Source: Lentilactobacillus senioris DSM 24302 = JCM 17472 (GTDB lineage: Bacteria; Bacillota; Bacilli; Lactobacillales; Lactobacillaceae). Taken from it: a DNA stretch of 64,000 bases. The stretch's first letter is position 1. Every line of letters starts with the position of its first letter. The stretch is taken from contig NZ_AYZR01000004.1 in assembly GCF_001436555.1 (NCBI RefSeq), forward strand, positions 186,001 through 250,000, read 5' to 3'. Below the pieces are notes generated by a model, which was not told where the DNA came from, did not search any database, and saw only the letters and a list, made by a program, of their open reading frames with translations. Both the position numbers and the translations under genes were made by a program. Below are positions 1 to 63,191 of the stretch, piece after piece.

Positions 1-1873
1 CGGTTCCCAAGAGAGTTGTAAAGAAGAGGTCTTTATCAACATCACTACTACGATCAGCAACGTTGATCACAGCTTGAATTTTTTCACCCGAATCAATATT
101 AAGCAAGTTAATAATCGGAATTCCCTTAGCGGCACGACCGTATTCAGGAATTTCGTACCCTTTCATCCGGTAAACTTTTCCGGCATCGGTAAAGAAGAGC
201 AAAATATCGTGGGTAGAGGTTGAAACCAAGTGTTCAATGAAATCGTCGTCATGAACACCCATACCTTGGACCCCACGACCACCACGATTTTGCGCCTTGA
301 ACTCGGTAGTTGGAAGTCGTTTGATGTAGCCGTTATGAGTCAAACTAACGATTACGTCTTCTTCTTCGATCAAGTCTTCGTCTTCTAGACTAAGAACTTC
401 TCCAACTAGTAATTCAGTTCGCCGATCATCGCCAAACTTATCTTGAATTTCCAAGAGTTCTTGGTAAATGATTTCGTTAACGCGCTCGCGACTAGCCAAA
501 ATTTCTTTGTAGTTTTCAATGGCCTTCATCAAGTCATTGTATTCTTTTTCAACTTTTTCACGTTCCAAACCAGTCAAACGAACTAACCGCATATCTAAGA
601 TCGCTTGAGATTGCTTATCACTTAACCCAAATTGACTCATCAATTCGTTTTTAGCAATTTCACCAGTTTGAGATCCCCGAATAATCGCAATGATGGCATC
701 AATATGGTCTAACGCAATCCGTAAACCTTCTAAGATGTGGGCTCTAGCTTGCGCTTTCTTCAATTCGTAAGCTGTCCGGCGTTTGATAACTTCCACTTGG
801 TGTTCCAAGTAGTAGGTCAAGATTTCTTTTAAGCTAAGCACTTGTGGCGTGCCTTTAACAATTGCCAACATGTTGAAGCTAAATGAAGTCTGCATCAAGG
901 TTAGCTTGTAAAGGTTATTTAAGATTACTTCGGCACTAGCATCCCGGCGTACATCAATTACGATTCGCATTCCTTCTCGGTCAGACTCATCGTTAACATC
1001 AGTGATGCCTTCGATCCGTTTTTCCCGAGCTAGTTCAGCAATTCGTTCAATCAATTTAGCCTTGTTAACCATGTAAGGAATTTCGGTGGCCACGATTCTT
1101 TGCTTACCGTTAGCATCACCTTCAATTTCTACCCGCGCTCTTAAAGTAATTGAACCCTTTCCAGTTTCGTAGGCTTTTCTGATTCCAGATTTGCCCATTA
1201 CAACTCCTCCCGTTGGGAAGTCAGGTCCCGGAAGAACTTCCATTAGGTCAGCAGTGGTAGCGTCTGGATTATTCATCAAGACGTGAATAGCACTAATAAC
1301 TTCAGAAAGGTTGTGCGGTGGAATGTTAGTAGCCATCCCAACGGCAATCCCAGATGCCCCGTTGACTAACAGGTTAGGAAAACGCGCTGGTAAAACGGAT
1401 GGTTCCCGTTCAGTGCCATCATAGTTATCTTGAAAATCAATTGTATCTTTATTGATATCTCGAATCATTTCCATGGCGATTTTGCTCAACCGAGCTTCGG
1501 TATACCGCATAGCAGCAGCCCCATCACCATCGACAGACCCAAAGTTACCATGTCCATCAACTAACATATAGCGGTAACTAAATTCTTGAGCCATTCGTAC
1601 CATTGATTCGTAAACGGCAGTATCCCCATGGGGGTGATACTTACCCAAAACGTCCCCAACAATTCTGGCAGACTTTTTGTATGGTTTATCAGGGGTAACC
1701 CCTAATTCGTGCATATCATATAAAATTCGCCGGTGAACCGGTTTTAATCCATCTCGAACGTCTGGTAACGCCCGAGCAACAATAACACTCATTGCGTAGT
1801 CAAGAAATGACGTCCGCATTTTTTTAGATAAGTCAATTTCAGTAACATGACTTTCAAAATTTTCTTCGGCCAA
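1..1873 (-). CDS. gyrA: DNA gyrase subunit A, 3' part missing
   Basis: Type II topoisomerase A subunit, which breaks and rejoins DNA and works with GyrB to introduce negative supercoils. About 624 N-terminal residues are present; the window edge removes the rest of the C-terminal beta-propeller. The start is TTG at 1873 (M-A-E-E-N-F-E-S-H), preceded by GGAGG at 1883-1887. The breakage-reunion core is clear: [20 protein letters not shown], the quinolone-determining stretch [15 protein letters not shown], and [20 protein letters not shown] with its catalytic tyrosine region. The residue matching E. coli Ser83 is Thr (GDTAVYE). It lies directly downstream of gyrB on the same strand, the usual arrangement. 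Identification is certain. ParC is ruled out by the gyrB neighbourhood and origin location. Confidence 0.97.
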
Positions 1874-1968: not shown

Positions 1969-5025
<3,057 letters not shown>

Positions 5026-14088: not shown

Positions 14089-16017
14089 GTGAAAAGTTTA
14101 CAAGTCAGCGACGTTAAGCAGACTTACGCTGGTGATGATTATGATGTAATCGTTGTCGGTGCTGGCCACGCTGGAAGTGAAGCGGCTTTAGCTGCTGCCA
14201 GAATGGGAAATAAAACCCTCTTAATTACTATTAATTTAGACATGGTAGCTTTTATGCCATGTAACCCTTCAATTGGGGGCCCTGCCAAAGGGATCGTTGT
14301 TCGAGAAATCGACGCTCTCGGTGGTGAAATGGGGAAAAATATTGATAAAACTTATGTGCAAATGCGGATGTTAAACACTGGAAAAGGTCCAGCTGTTCAA
14401 GCATTACGGGCGCAAGCAGATAAGCATGCTTACCACTCTGAAATGAAGGCAACTATTGAAAACGAACCTAACTTGACCTTACGTCAGGGAACGGTAGATG
14501 ACCTGATCATTGAAGACGGTGAATGCCGTGGGGTTGTCACTAATACTGGTGCTAAATACCGGGCTAAAGCGGTAGTAGTGTGTGCCGGAACTGCAGCTCG
14601 CGGTAAGATTATTATCGGAGAATTGATGTACGCTTCTGGTCCTAACAATTCTCAACCCGCTGAAAAGCTAACCGCTAACCTAGAAAAATTGGGTTTTGAT
14701 TTGGAACGGTTTAAGACGGGAACCCCGCCACGAGTAGACGGAAAAACAATCGACTATTCTAAGACGGAACAGCAACCCGGTGATGAAACTCCTAACTTCT
14801 TTAGCTACGAATCTAAAGATGAAGATTATCTAGCAGTTAAAAATCAACTTTCTTGTTGGTTAACTTACACCAATGAAAAGACGCACGAAATTATCCGGGA
14901 AAACTTTGATCGAGCTCCTATGTTTACCGGAGTGATCGAAGGGGTGGGCCCCCGTTATTGCCCATCTATCGAAGATAAAATTGTCCGTTTTGCTGATAAG
15001 AAGCGGCATCAGTTATTCTTAGAGCCGGAAGGTCGTCATACTCAAGAATGGTATGTCCAAGGGCTTTCTACCTCCATGCCAGAAGAAGTACAACAAGAAT
15101 TTATCCATACGATCGCGGGCTTGGAACACGCTGAAATGATGCGGCCCGGTTACGCTATCGAATATGACGTGGTTGCACCATATCAGCTAAAACCAACCTT
15201 GGAAACTAAGGTTGTTAAAAACCTCTTTACCGCCGGTCAAACTAACGGAACATCTGGTTACGAAGAAGCTGCAGGCCAAGGCTTGATTGCCGGAATTAAC
15301 GCTGGTTTACGGGCTCAAGGTAAGCCAGGCTTTACTTTGAAGCGGGATGAAGCCTACATCGGGGTAATGATCGATGATTTGGTAACCAAGGGAACTAAGG
15401 AACCTTACCGGTTATTAACTAGTCGGGCCGAATACCGGTTATTGCTTAGAAATGATAATGCCGATATGCGGTTAACCGAAAAGGGTCATGAGTTAGGTTT
15501 GATTGCTGACGATCGTTACGAAGCCTTTTTAGCTAAGAAAGCCGTTGTAGAAGCCGAATTAGAACGGTTAGCTAAGATTCGAATTAAGCCTAGTGAAGCA
15601 GTCAACGAGTTTATCACCTCCCATGGCGACAAACCATTACAAGACGGTGTGATAGCTGCTATTTTCTTACGGCGGCCATACGTGGATTATAAAACCCTCT
15701 TACAGTTCATTGCTGCACCGGATGAAGCATTAGGTCGCAGAGAAGTTGAGCAAGTTGAAATTAGAACCAAGTACGCTGGCTATATTGCTAAGGCCGAAGA
15801 AAACGTTGAGAAGATGAAGAAGATGGAAGCTAAGAAGATTCCGGATAATATCGACTACGACGCCATCGACGGAATTGCAACTGAAGCCCACCAAAAATTA
15901 AAGCAAATTCAACCCGAAACACTAGCCCAAGCAGGCCGCATTAGTGGGGTCAACCCAGCTGATATTGCCATTTTGAGTGTGTATATCCAACAGGGAAAAA
16001 TTGCAAAAGTCCAATAA
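14089..16017 (+). CDS. mnmG: tRNA uridine-5-carboxymethylaminomethyl modification enzyme MnmG (GidA)
   Basis: FAD-dependent partner of MnmE. The start is GTG at 14089 ([15 protein letters not shown]) with GGAGGA 8 bases upstream, giving 642 residues. The FAD motif is [21 protein letters not shown]. Family blocks [21 protein letters not shown], the cysteine-bearing [14 protein letters not shown] and the C-terminal helical tail ([18 protein letters not shown]-like) are all present. rsmG and parAB, which follow mnmG in many Firmicutes, are absent here; a strong terminator and a leftward gene follow instead. Confidence 0.97.
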
Positions 16018-16048
16018 AAAAACATCGCCGTGACGGCGATGTTTTTTT
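16018..16048 (+). terminator. mnmG terminator
   Basis: Arms CATCGCCG / CGGCGATG with loop TGA, A run 5' and T run 3'. It is shared by the convergent genes mnmG and the membrane protein. Confidence 0.92.
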
Positions 16049-16050
16049 AT

Positions 16051-16833
16051 TTATTGATCTTCACCTACATCTAGTGCTTGATGGTGCAGATTTTTGAAGA
16101 CGTGAGTATCAGCCCAGCCGGTAATTCCACCTTGAGCTAGGAAGGCAAAAACCGTTCCTAAGCCGAAGTTGGTAAAGCGATGGGTAATTAAAAGGGCAAT
16201 GATAGCAAGGATGGTAGGGGGAATATAAGAAGCCCACATAGCTGGTGCTGCTTGCCCCTTGAAAAATTTAAACCGTAAGATTTGCATTAAGTCATCAGCG
16301 GGATGCAAAACTAGGTTAACCCGTTGATAAATCGAAATGGCAATCGCAATGAGAGCCACTCCAGCAAAATTAATTAAGACGTAGAGGCCGATCATAAGGG
16401 GCGTCTTAGCTTCTGGAAACCCGCTAAACAAATTAGGATACTTGCCCATGAAGAAGTCCTCAAAGAGTTGAATTAGGGCTGAGAAGGGAACCATGAAGGC
16501 AAGATTACCTAAAATACGTTTCCATTCAAATTTTCGAATTAACGCTGCGTTTAATAACGAAGTTAAAATTCCGATAATTAGAAAAGTCCAAAATAAATTC
16601 CAGTGAACGGCGGTTCCAAAATTGGCTTCCGCTGCTGTCCAGTAGGCAGATCCTAGAAAAGACGGCATGATTTTGGCACTAGTAACTAGGGTTAAGACGT
16701 TACCGGCGGAGTTAATTACCAGTGAAAGAGCAAAGAATCCTAACGAGGCAGCCATGGAAAGACTCCGAGTTTTGGGTTTAATTTCAGTTTGCGGTTCAGT
16801 AGCTAAGACTTTATGATTCAGCAAAATTTCCAC
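16051..16833 (-). CDS. Multi-pass membrane protein, possibly YczE/YyaS-like
   Basis: 260 residues with five to six membrane segments, for example ASLGFFALSLVINSAGNVL, NLFWTFLIIGILTSLL, PLMIGLYVLINFAGVALIAIA and a last pair near residues 205-245. The segment LHPADDLMQILRFKFFKG and the layout resemble the YczE/YyaS membrane family, but I am not certain. The start is ambiguous: GTG 16833 is 1-2 bases from AGGA, while an in-frame TTG at 16824 has better spacing. It lies 18 bases downstream of a fructokinase on the same strand, so it is probably cotranscribed and could take part in sugar handling or export. Confidence 0.6.
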   Translation of the reverse strand: MEILLNHKVLATEPQTEIKPKTRSLSMAASLGFFALSLVINSAGNVLTLVTSAKIMPSFLGSAYWTAAEANFGTAVHWNLFWTFLIIGILTSLLNAALIRKFEWKRILGNLAFMVPFSALIQLFEDFFMGKYPNLFSGFPEAKTPLMIGLYVLINFAGVALIAIAISIYQRVNLVLHPADDLMQILRFKFFKGQAAPAMWASYIPPTILAIIALLITHRFTNFGLGTVFAFLAQGGITGWADTHVFKNLHHQALDVGEDQ

Positions 16834-38906: not shown

Positions 38907-39053
38907 AACGATATACAAAAGGGAGGGGCTCAGGCCACTATTGTTTCCTCGCAAGAAAGTAATGTTTACATTGTGGATGTGGCTCCGTTTGAAGGGCAAA
39001 AAGCCATGAATAATCATCGGTGGTTATTGCAATCGGAGTTAAAAGCTAGATAA
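38907..39053 (+). pseudogene. Orphan short open frame without a start codon
   Basis: In the 446-bp spacer between oppA and dus, a plus-strand frame is open from 38907 to TAA 39051-39053. Its last part reads ATIVSSQESNVYIVDVAPFE, GQKAMNNHRW, LLQSELKAR and looks like real coding sequence. A perfect ribosome-binding site GGGAGGGG (38921-38928) precedes it, but the expected ATG before ATIVSS is CAGGCC; losing one T from CATGGCC would explain this. It has its own terminator. It is either a recently broken small gene or a fragment. I do not recognise the protein. A hairpin AAAAATGAG / CTCATTTTT lies at about 38813-38836. Confidence 0.5.
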
Positions 39054-39054
39054 T

Positions 39055-39092
39055 AAAAAACCCGTAATGACCATTAGTCATTGCGGGTTTTT
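39055..39092. terminator. Bidirectional terminator ahead of dus
   Basis: Arms AAAAACCCGTAATGAC / GTCATTGCGGGTTTTT with one G-T pair. It serves the leftward dus gene and the orphan frame. Confidence 0.9.
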
Positions 39093-39096
39093 CTGA

Positions 39097-40092
39097 TTAT
39101 TTTAAAATATCCGAGGCCGCCAACATTTGACGAACTTCATCAGTTGATTTGGTGTCCATCAATTCGGCTCTTAAATCTGCTGAATGAGGAATTGATTTAA
39201 CGTAAATCTTGAAGAATCTCTTCAAGGATGGGAACCGTGGTGAATCATACAACTTAGAAAAATCATCGAAGAGATCTAGTTGTAGCTTGAGTAAGTCGAT
39301 TAGTTCTTTAGGAGTATGCGTGTGTGGATCAGCTTCAAAAGCAAATGGGTTTGCAAAAATCCCACGACCAATCATCACTCCGTCTAAACCAGGATGTTCA
39401 GCGGCCAACTTATTAGCTGCTGTCCGATCAGCGACGTCGCCGTTAACGGCAATCAAAGTATTTGGAGAAATTGCATCTCGCATTTTGATGATGTCGTCAA
39501 TCAATTCATAGTGGGCAGGCACCTTACTCATTTCTTGGCGAGTTCTCATGTGAACGGTTAAGACCTGGACTTCCTGTTCTAATAAGAAAGGAATCCATTC
39601 TTTGAATTCTTCGGGTTTACTAAAACCAAGCCGGGCCTTTACACTAACTGGTAAACCGGCCTCTTTGGTTGCTGCAATGACTTCGGCAGCGGAATCTGGA
39701 TGGCGAATTAAGTCACTCCCACCGTGATTTTTAATAACGGTGGCGTCTGGACAACCGGTGTTGATATCAATGGCTTCAAAGCCCTTTTCCTTAACGGCAA
39801 ACGCCGCTTTACGGAAATCTTCGCCAACATTGCCCCAAAGTTGGACGATGGGTTTGATCGGTTCATTTTCAGAAATATATAAACGGCCCTGCGCCGCAAA
39901 TTTAGCTTTAGGGTGGGTAATGCTTAAGGCATTAACAAATTCAGTATTGATAACGTCTGGAGCCGCTGCAGAATCAACGACCTGACGGAAAACGGCGTTA
40001 GTCACGGCTTCCATGGGAGCCAGACTCAAAAACGGCCGGTGTTCGGCCCGTGTTTTAGCAGCAATTTTTTGCCAATATGGTGAAAGTTCCAC
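39097..40092 (-). CDS. tRNA-dihydrouridine synthase family protein
   Basis: 331-residue FMN enzyme that reduces uridines in tRNA D-loops. TIM-barrel motifs: LSLAPMEAVTNAVFRQV, PIVQLWGNVGEDF, IDINTGCPDATVIKNHGGSD (with the active-site cysteine), VSVKARLGF, VHMRTRQ, VNGDVADR, and GVMIGRGIFANPFAF in the phosphate-binding region. It starts at GTG 40092 with AAAGGAG. It is a second-type Dus rather than the canonical DusB next to lysS; target position unknown. Confidence 0.9.
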   Translation of the reverse strand: MELSPYWQKIAAKTRAEHRPFLSLAPMEAVTNAVFRQVVDSAAAPDVINTEFVNALSITHPKAKFAAQGRLYISENEPIKPIVQLWGNVGEDFRKAAFAVKEKGFEAIDINTGCPDATVIKNHGGSDLIRHPDSAAEVIAATKEAGLPVSVKARLGFSKPEEFKEWIPFLLEQEVQVLTVHMRTRQEMSKVPAHYELIDDIIKMRDAISPNTLIAVNGDVADRTAANKLAAEHPGLDGVMIGRGIFANPFAFEADPHTHTPKELIDLLKLQLDLFDDFSKLYDSPRFPSLKRFFKIYVKSIPHSADLRAELMDTKSTDEVRQMLAASDILK

Positions 40093-44035: not shown

Positions 44036-44140
44036 TTGACAGGCTAATATTAGTTTGAGATGATACCTAAAAAGCACCACCGGGTGTGAGCACTTATAAA
44101 ACTCATTAGGTCTTAGTTGAGTTTTGTAGGTGCTTTTTGT
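44036..44140 (+). promoter_or_regulatory. sugE promoter and attenuator-type leader (candidate guanidine riboswitch)
   Basis: TTGACA at 44036-44041 with a -10 around 44059-44066 gives a leader of about 90 nt. AAAAAGCACC (44069-44078) can pair with GGTGCTTTTT (44129-44138), enclosing AAAACTCA / TGAGTTTT (44098-44125). This makes an intrinsic terminator just before the sugE ribosome-binding site. The 5' CACC (44075-44078) can instead pair with GGTG (44083-44086), which would break the terminator. SugE/Gdx genes are commonly under guanidine riboswitches; membership of a known class is not shown here. Confidence 0.6.
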
Positions 44141-44161: not shown

Positions 44162-44476
44162 ATGACTTGGTTTTATTTAGTAATCGCTGGAATTTTTGAA
44201 GTGGTGTGGGCTACGACTATGAAGCTCAGCCATGGATTTAGTCAGTTGGGCTATAGTTTGGCGACGTTAATCGGCATGAGCTTGAGTTTTGGTTTTTTGG
44301 CGTTAGCCACTAAACACTTGCCGTTAAGCATTGCTTACCCGGTCTGGACGGGAATTGGGGCAGTGAGCTCCATTATTATAGGAGTAACTTTGTTTCACGA
44401 CCAACTTTCACCAGCTACCTGGATATTTGTGGGATTATTAGTGATTAGTATTTTAGGAATTAAATTAACTAGTTGA
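44162..44476 (+). CDS. sugE: SMR transporter SugE/Gdx (guanidinium exporter family)
   Basis: 104 residues, four helices. The essential membrane Glu lies in AGIFEVVWATTMKLSHGF, with the WATTMK pattern typical of SugE/Gdx rather than EmrE-like multidrug SMRs. LPLSIAYPVWTGIGAVSSII and LFHDQLS are further family phrases. It forms a dual-topology homodimer and probably exports guanidinium by proton antiport. A structured leader precedes it. AGGGAGGG upstream of the ATG. Monocistronic. Confidence 0.9.
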   Translation: MTWFYLVIAGIFEVVWATTMKLSHGFSQLGYSLATLIGMSLSFGFLALATKHLPLSIAYPVWTGIGAVSSIIIGVTLFHDQLSPATWIFVGLLVISILGIKLTS

Positions 44477-44480
44477 AAGC

Positions 44481-44648
44481 ACAAAAAAACCGCCATTGAA
44501 ATGGCGGTTAGCAATTACCTAAAATTCGTTAGGAAAATTGCCGCGATTCGTCAACCAACCTATAGTAGTCGGAGGTGGTTGAACGCGCAGCTACGCGCGG
44601 CGTGCAATGCACGCGACGACATCTTTGTCGCCTAGATTTGGCACCTAT
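44481..44648 (-). ncRNA. Candidate structured small RNA
   Basis: Non-coding minus-strand unit with an extended -10 (TGCTATAAT, 44655-44663) and an intrinsic terminator at its other end (AACCGCCAT / ATGGCGGTT, 44488-44509, then seven U). In between lie five further hairpins: CGACA / TGTCG (44617-44630), GCGTG / CACGC (44600-44614), CGCGC / GCGCG (44584-44599), CAACCAACCT / AGGTGGTTG (44552-44581, one bulge) and GCAATT+CCTAA / TTAGG+AATTGC (44511-44541). The predicted RNA is about 165 nt. It does not look like tmRNA, 6S, RNase P or SRP RNA. No open frame with a start and ribosome-binding site was seen on this strand. Confidence 0.62.
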
Positions 44649-44729: not shown

Positions 44730-44765
44730 AAAAAGCCCAATTCTGAAACTAAGTATTGGGCTTTT
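44730..44765 (-). terminator. degV terminator
   Basis: Arms AAAAGCCCAAT / ATTGGGCTTTT with a 13-base loop, immediately past the degV stop. Confidence 0.88.
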
Positions 44766-44768
44766 AGA

Positions 44769-62526: not shown

Positions 62527-63054
62527 ATGAAATTTGTAAATGTTGATGAAACGCTGCGAAACTATTGGGTGCGAGTTTATGATGGAGCCTTTCCAGCTGC
62601 AGAGCGCAAACCGTTTACCGAGTTGGTTGATCTAAATCAAGAAGCGGCCGTTCATATGAACATCATTCAAGAGGCAGGAATTAATTTAGGCTTGGCCTTT
62701 TTCTATGAGCTAACGCCAACTTCAATTTATCTAGTTTTTTTGGCAGTGGACCCAGCACAGCGGGGCCAAGGGTGGGGTTCTAAAATCCTAACCGAATTAA
62801 AGCGGCAATATCCAGATGGAATTGTCTTGGAAAGTGAACAGACGAATGCTGGAGCAACCAATGAGGAGCAACGGCAAAAACGGTACCGATTCTATCAGCG
62901 AAATGGTTTTACTGATAGTGGTTATTTGACGGATTTAACCGGGATGACCTTTCACGTGCTGACTACCGGACAGCCAGGATTAGTTGCTGGATATCAAGCA
63001 GCACTCCAAAAATTTGCCCTACCAGCAACGGTTACGGCACCTAAAGATAATTAA
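62527..63054 (+). CDS. GNAT-family N-acetyltransferase
   Basis: 175 residues. Acetyl-CoA motif A: VFLAVDPAQRGQGWGSKILT (Q/RxxGxG/A form). Strand 4-5 and the RYRFYQRNGFTDSGYL motif B are present. AGAGGAG upstream. Substrate unknown. Monocistronic with a compound terminator. Confidence 0.88.
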   Translation: MKFVNVDETLRNYWVRVYDGAFPAAERKPFTELVDLNQEAAVHMNIIQEAGINLGLAFFYELTPTSIYLVFLAVDPAQRGQGWGSKILTELKRQYPDGIVLESEQTNAGATNEEQRQKRYRFYQRNGFTDSGYLTDLTGMTFHVLTTGQPGLVAGYQAALQKFALPATVTAPKDN

Positions 63055-63056
63055 AT

Positions 63057-63117
63057 AAACCGAGGAACCCAACTATACCGGACTTTATTGTCCGTAAATG
63101 GGATCCTCGGTTTTTAT
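63057..63117 (+). terminator. GNAT gene terminator (compound hairpin)
   Basis: Outer arms AAACCGAGGA / TCCTCGGTTT, with an inner hairpin CGGAC / GTCCG (63079-63094), then a T run. Confidence 0.87.
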
Positions 63118-63191
63118 TTTTAAGTCAATTTAAAGTTAAGCGCCTTAATCTAATTCGCGTACTTACAAATCAGTTAAAGGACGTGAAAAGA

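Follow-up and report, generated by a model that had tools for sequence, protein, structure and literature searches.

A candidate family of structured small RNAs with two conserved loops in Lactobacillaceae

Introduction

The Lactobacillaceae are important in food and in the gut. The closest described counterparts of the RNA reported here are the intergenic trans-encoded sRNAs of Gram-positive bacteria, which it resembles in its promoter element, its intrinsic terminator, its intergenic position, its conserved unpaired loops and its differing neighbors. Unlike those sRNAs, its hairpins abut in a chain that leaves hardly any linker between them, its strongest sequence conservation lies in and around the loops of two hairpins (P1 and P5), and it is known from sequence alone. 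Evidence of the same kind, in the same bacterial order, underlies the Lactobacillales motifs of Weinberg et al. 2010, given in the consulted part of that paper as asd, the L17 downstream element, lactis-plasmid, Lacto-int, Lacto-rpoB and Lacto-usp (PMC2864571). No Rfam family matched the RNA, a comparison that would cover the five of these motifs to which the paper's table gives Rfam numbers; Lacto-int has no number there and lies outside it. The 6S RNA of lactic acid bacteria, described in an excerpt of PMC8414754 as rod-shaped, its internal loop enlarged, is similar in falling within the small-RNA size range, but the RNA here is a string of separate hairpins with no Rfam match.

A literature search at title and abstract level, which is not proof of absence, found no published description of the RNA. 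We class the candidate as a new family within a kind already known, the intergenic trans-encoded sRNA. With it the Lactobacillaceae gain an RNA family supported by covariation, and one that offers handles for functional tests: two loops, nine genomes, and copies that are present or not found within one genus.

Results and Discussion

A predicted transcription unit between degV and a sugE-like gene

The window, meaning the whole stretch of 64,000 nucleotides that was analyzed, carries on its minus strand, in the spacer between degV and a sugE-like gene, an extended -10, seven hairpins and a U-run (Table 1). Coordinates, strand and extended -10 were as the first-pass annotation of this DNA had described them. 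Its six hairpins became seven on folding, six plus the terminator hairpin; the U-run terminator itself stood. The extended -10 lies 8–10 nt upstream of GGTGCC in all nine members of the family (lenient pattern); no -35 box was recognizable, and the promoter scan listed no promoter-like site on the minus strand. Judged by sequence only, the unit resembles a trans-encoded sRNA: it is intergenic, has a promoter element of its own and ends in an intrinsic terminator.

Table 1. Features of the locus, in window coordinates.
Feature	Position	Strand	Basis or remark
degV	45641-44769	-	Pfam DegV
Terminator-like hairpin of degV, AAAAGCCCAATACTTAGTTTCAGAATTGGGCTTTTTATTT, upstream of the RNA promoter	44730-44766	-	By eye; absent from terminator scan list
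Extended -10 TGCTATAAT, no recognizable -35	44663-44655	-	Sequence
Predicted transcript, about 165 nt	44481-44648	-	Start inferred ~7 nt after the -10; end at U-run
P1, UAGGU-GCCAA-AUCUA, conserved loop GCCAA, very 5' end	44633-44647	-	GGTGCCAAA identical in 9/9 members
P2, GGCGACA-AAGA-UGUCGUC	44615-44632	-	Sequence variable, helix conserved (hand alignment)
P3, GCGUGC-AUU-GCACGC	44600-44614	-	Hand alignment
P4, CGCGC-GUAGCU-GCGCG	44584-44599	-	Hand alignment; no counterpart in L. laojiaonis
P5, CAACCACCU-CCGACUACUAU-AGGU(U)GGUUG, conserved loop CCGACUAC	44552-44581	-	CCGACTAC identical in 9/9 members
P6, loop CGNAUUU	44511-44542	-	Comparison; among the nine members only in the four Lentilactobacillus
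Terminator hairpin AACCGCCAUUUCAAUGGCGGUU (44509-44488) plus U-run	44481-44509	-	Terminator scan
sugE-like gene, convergent with the RNA	44162-44476		Pfam Multi_Drug_Res

The GC-rich block noticed earlier in the middle of the unit was borne out, with 67% G+C in 44584-44632 against 31% in the spacer outside the RNA. The statement that there is no open frame does not hold literally. A minus-strand frame of 58 codons with a TTG start (44705-44529) overlaps the RNA, as does a plus-strand frame of 44 codons with an ATG start (44501-44635). The TTG frame begins before the point where the transcript is predicted to start, and in L. kribbianus a single base is inserted between P3 and P4. The predicted unit is without a plausible ORF.

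Nine members in four genera

Nine members were found: four in Lentilactobacillus (the window genome, G000; L. senioris, G014; L. kribbianus, G002; L. laojiaonis, G020), three in Paucilactobacillus, where they occupy three of the seven genomes of the genus (P. hokkaidonensis JCM 18461, G103, and its genus mates G230 and G025), and one apiece in two further genera (genomes G136 and G042). Over the 6 kb compared, contig C2 of G103 is identical to NZ_AP014681.1. Common to all nine are the extended -10, a 5' hairpin with a GCCAA loop and a later hairpin with a CCGACUAC loop.

BLAST with the window RNA matched four of 100 relatives, its own genome included; G000, G014 and G002 were kept and G038, a 24-nt match, was dropped. 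L. laojiaonis gave a weak BLAST match (E 0.016) and has the same layout minus P4, with different neighbors. A core 19-mer with at most two mismatches occurred in 15 of 397 genomes, and its backwards control in 18 (counted from the table of matches); twelve of the 15 were dropped after their sequences were read by eye and showed no P1 module, leaving G000, G014 and G002 again. In three of those dropped (G038, G144 and G391) the matching site is shared and immediately precedes one gene, presumably a GntR-type regulator.

Covariance model R1, built on P5 only, matched 18 of 397 genomes at E ≤ 0.1, from which four at E ≤ 5e-12 were kept and the other 14 dropped after reading. Model R2 (P5 and P6), with at most 150 candidates scored per genome, matched 12 of the 24 genomes of the genus at E ≤ 1; four were kept, each at E 4e-20 or better, and the remaining eight (best E 0.0188; two of the eight read) were dropped. 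Across the family R2 gave 22 of 397 genomes at E ≤ 0.1, where the same four plus G103 were kept and 17 were dropped (12 of the 17 sequences read). G103, with an E-value of 0.067, ranks below 13 of the dropped matches; it was accepted despite this weak score because it also carries the promoter and the P1 module, and because its P5 runs straight into a U-run. Neither R1 nor R2 found a further convincing member among the 24 same-genus genomes, and no copy was detected in 20 of them, two of which are less than 90% complete.

A two-module pattern with a narrow gap matched 17 of 397 genomes, only G020 being genuine; of the rest, ten were one identical 63-nt repeat and six were rejected from their matched letters only. 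This 63-nt stretch is found in ten of the 397 family genomes (L135, L138-L142, L145-L151), four times in G373, and is probably part of a mobile element. With a wider gap the pattern matched three of the seven Paucilactobacillus genomes, adding the two genus mates of G103, and seven of 216 relatives (3/24 in the genus, 4/108 in other genera of the family, 0/84 in other families of the order) and its backwards control none, where by our own arithmetic one or two chance matches are expected in 216 genomes. G136 and G042 were accepted because each has the extended -10, five hairpins and a U-run, with folding z-scores of -6.3 and -6.5.

Viral contigs gave no match in one search and 50 pattern matches in another (best R1 E 0.21), and plasmids and phages gave none. 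Six genome contigs matched, three from Lentilactobacillus being kept and one Priestia and two Bacteroidales contigs dropped. A short unit in G118 (L095, ~1501-1534, minus strand), where a terminator-like hairpin containing CCGACTAC accompanies an extended -10-like box, may be a reduced relative or may be due to chance.

The stems covary and are recovered across genera

In a MAFFT alignment of the four Lentilactobacillus species, 95.3% of the cells of P5 and P6 pair, and 11 of the 22 pairs changed on both sides with pairing retained, against an average of 5.1 in shuffles, 0/500 of which were as high; these are four sequences, two of them near-identical, with the structure read from the same sequences. 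When the partners were slid, the paired fraction fell to 26–48%. P6 contributed nine of 13 pairs changed on both sides, with 92% of cells paired. The first-pass annotation had named stems broken without compensation in relatives as a refutation, and for P5 and P6 in these four species the opposite was found.

By hand alignment of the nine members all 279 of 279 pairs were standard, a biased count in that the alignment was made so that arms would pair. When an arm of one member was set against the opposite arm of another, pairing was 80, 48, 34, 65 and 55% for P1 to P5. P1 had 45/45 standard pairs, with U-A/A-U and G-U/G-C exchanges, and P5 a nine-pair stem in 9/9 members (for the Lentilactobacillus sequences, after leaving out one bulged base). 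P2 of L. kribbianus has a C-G to U-A exchange with pairing retained, and the 3' terminators of L. kribbianus and L. laojiaonis are still a hairpin plus U-run in other letters. MAFFT misaligned P3–P5 when given all nine, and RNAalifold on that alignment recovered only P1–P3 (17 pairs, 10 with two-sided changes).

The cleanest test is R3, a model that drew only on the five members of the other genera and so left out the genus of the window. It matched the window RNA at 44648-44551 with 52 bits (E 1e-9), L. senioris at E 5e-10, L. kribbianus at 1.5e-9 and L. laojiaonis with 23 bits at E 0.0024, the E-values of such models being rough. Besides these four Lentilactobacillus members, the window included, R3 gave no match at E ≤ 1 although 112,000 bases were searched. 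On 68 further loci R3 again found the window, L. senioris and L. kribbianus copies, together with two more matches (E 0.09 and 0.91). The conserved structure is real, as in trans-encoded sRNAs, and the candidate undescribed structured small RNA proposed at first pass is supported by this recovery, by the covariation and by the lack of an Rfam family at gathering score.

Two conserved loops on drifting stems

The reading we prefer, by somewhat more than an even chance, is an independently transcribed trans-acting sRNA that would act through two exposed loops, most likely by base-pairing. The RNA would be transcribed from its own promoter element and ended by the intrinsic terminator, both of which, like the hairpin chain and the two conserved loops, are established by comparison. 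P2–P4, whose letters drift while pairing persists, may for that reason be only a stiff spacer, and function would reside in the loops of P1 (GCCAA within GGUGCCAAAYC) and P5 (CCGACUAC), which would most likely pair with target RNAs as other intergenic Gram-positive sRNAs do.

The place of P5 changes between genera. In the five members outside Lentilactobacillus (G103, G230, G025, G136 and G042) a U-run follows directly 3' of P5, whereas the four Lentilactobacillus members have P5 without a U-run, then P6 and a separate terminator; the hairpin that ends the RNA elsewhere would thus be internal there. Because the loop is the same where P5 is the terminator and where it is internal, it appears to be selected apart from termination, which suggests a role for the CCGACUAC loop other than termination.

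A target test for P1 gave no support: complements of GGUGCCAAA showed no enrichment at start sites (62 of 67 listed sites, RNA genes excluded, in three of the nine genomes). Thirty-one of the 62 sites lay inside sense frames and 30 solely in antisense ones. Three sites, two of them identical in sequence, come closest to a start that has a Shine-Dalgarno-like box; they begin 31–45 nt before it. TTTGGCACC, the P1 complement, was commoner than its reversed control in all nine genomes (22 against 14 in G000, 47 against 10 in G103), in counts that include the RNA gene itself. This excess was not used as evidence because the control is unmatched for codon use and the 62 sites split evenly between sense and antisense. 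Anti-Shine-Dalgarno action of the CCUCC in P5 of the window was rejected, as neither the other genera nor L. laojiaonis conserve CCUCC.

The same result counts toward a protein-binding RNA, and two conserved loops on drifting stems fit a protein site as well as base-pairing; we favor base-pairing at about even odds. In the protein-binding alternative the two invariant loops would be a site or decoy for an RNA-binding protein, with stacked hairpins roughly fixing their distance and no base-pairing involved. The letters of the P1 closing pairs (GGU...A-Y-C) are kept as well as those of the loop, which speaks for it, as does the spacing: linkers in the hand alignment measure 0–2 nt before P2, P3 and P4 (2–5 nt before P5), the GCCAA loop stands 69–79 nt from the CCGACUAC loop in 8/9 members, and the P5 and P6 loops are equally far apart in all four Lentilactobacillus members. 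Against it, L. laojiaonis lacks one spacer hairpin and has a loop distance of 52, so that the ruler is not strict, and there is no candidate protein. We regard this alternative as possible but rather unlikely.

A bolder form, which we think improbable, makes the RNA a molecular ruler or scaffold, a stiff helix stack of drifting sequence presenting the invariant GCCAA and CCGACUAC loops to one protein or ribosomal partner, again with no base-pairing; Lentilactobacillus would have made the terminator hairpin internal and functional and added a third conserved loop, CGNAUUU.

Comparison with known RNA families

That the RNA is a very diverged housekeeping RNA (6S, SRP, RNase P or tmRNA) or belongs to another known sRNA family is very unlikely, although its size of 100–165 nt is similar to some of these. 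The Rfam covariance search proposed at first pass was run on the whole window and gave no family at gathering score. When the window RNA, G042, G103 and G136 were scanned loosely against Rfam, every match stayed far short of gathering, and the family named differed each time. One of these, to the Vibrio sRNA MicX, spans exactly 44481-44648; it scores 17.2 bits at E 0.16, where gathering would need 75, and we take it for chance. ARAGORN found no tmRNA gene in the window, SRP RNA and RNase P RNA had no Rfam model match, and the chain of hairpins differs from the 6S rod with its enlarged internal loop (PMC8414754, in the excerpt cited above). The patchy presence of the RNA, in four of 24 genomes of its own genus, also speaks against a housekeeping role.

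Neighboring genes

In the window the RNA lies between an SMR gene and a DegV gene. L. senioris and L. kribbianus have it between an SMR gene and a gene for a secreted metalloprotease-like protein (Pfam Peptidase_M10; L101:6138-7037, L100:2287-3279), which stands between the RNA and degV and is absent from the window. The L. laojiaonis copy is flanked by a small ORF without a Pfam match and a 369-aa ORF that we take to be of the lactate-oxidase type. In P. hokkaidonensis the neighbors are an ORF presumably encoding an MFS transporter and a protein of the FAD/NAD-binding type, the latter assigned right at the Pfam cut-off. The neighbor in G230 is a GNAT protein; G136 has a choloylglycine hydrolase and an ORF that we assume to be GGDEF-like, and G042 an 86-aa ORF without a Pfam match and one that is presumably SDR-like.

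No neighbor gene is fixed across genera, as for trans-encoded sRNAs, and since the neighboring ORFs differ between genera the RNA is probably trans-acting and cis action unlikely. A cis-acting element, whether the degV 3' UTR or an antisense or convergent element for sugE, could account for the RNA adjoining the sugE-like gene in three species. We find it hardly credible: degV has its own terminator-like hairpin, which makes the RNA a separate unit rather than a degV 3' UTR, another gene intervenes in L. senioris and L. kribbianus, and the neighboring ORFs are different in L. laojiaonis and the three other genera.

In the leader of the sugE-like gene (44036-44140, plus strand) a TTGACA box resembling a promoter is accompanied by two hairpins, GCACC-ACCG-GGUGU and a long one of attenuator-like form (z -4.07); these features are conserved in L. 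senioris and not in L. kribbianus. Genes of the sugE type are often under guanidine riboswitches, according to the portion of PMC9788692 consulted. No guanidine riboswitch family was among the Rfam matches at E ≤ 5, and the leader may be an unrecognized riboswitch.

Folding energy

The window RNA folds at -65.3 against -46.1 for shuffles (z -4.47, or -4.6 in a second computation), and its core folds as drawn with z -3.3. The compact members from other genera also fold as drawn (z -4.6, -6.3 for G136 and -6.5 for G042). The L. laojiaonis and L. kribbianus pieces, cut before their 3' ends, reached only -2.4 and -2.8, that of L. kribbianus taking a different fold in which AGGUG of P1 pairs with CACCU of P5.

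Five of 128 sampled tiles of the window (170 nt, every 1000 bases, both strands) had a lower z than the RNA, so that it does not stand out by folding energy taken by itself. It does stand out by covariation, which together with the cross-genus R3 match leads us to discount almost entirely the idea of fortuitous spacer hairpins without function, which those tiles would favor. The five tiles (z -4.85 to -6.11) lie at 16001-16170 on both strands, 3001-3170 (minus), 39001-39170 (plus) and 63001-63170 (minus).
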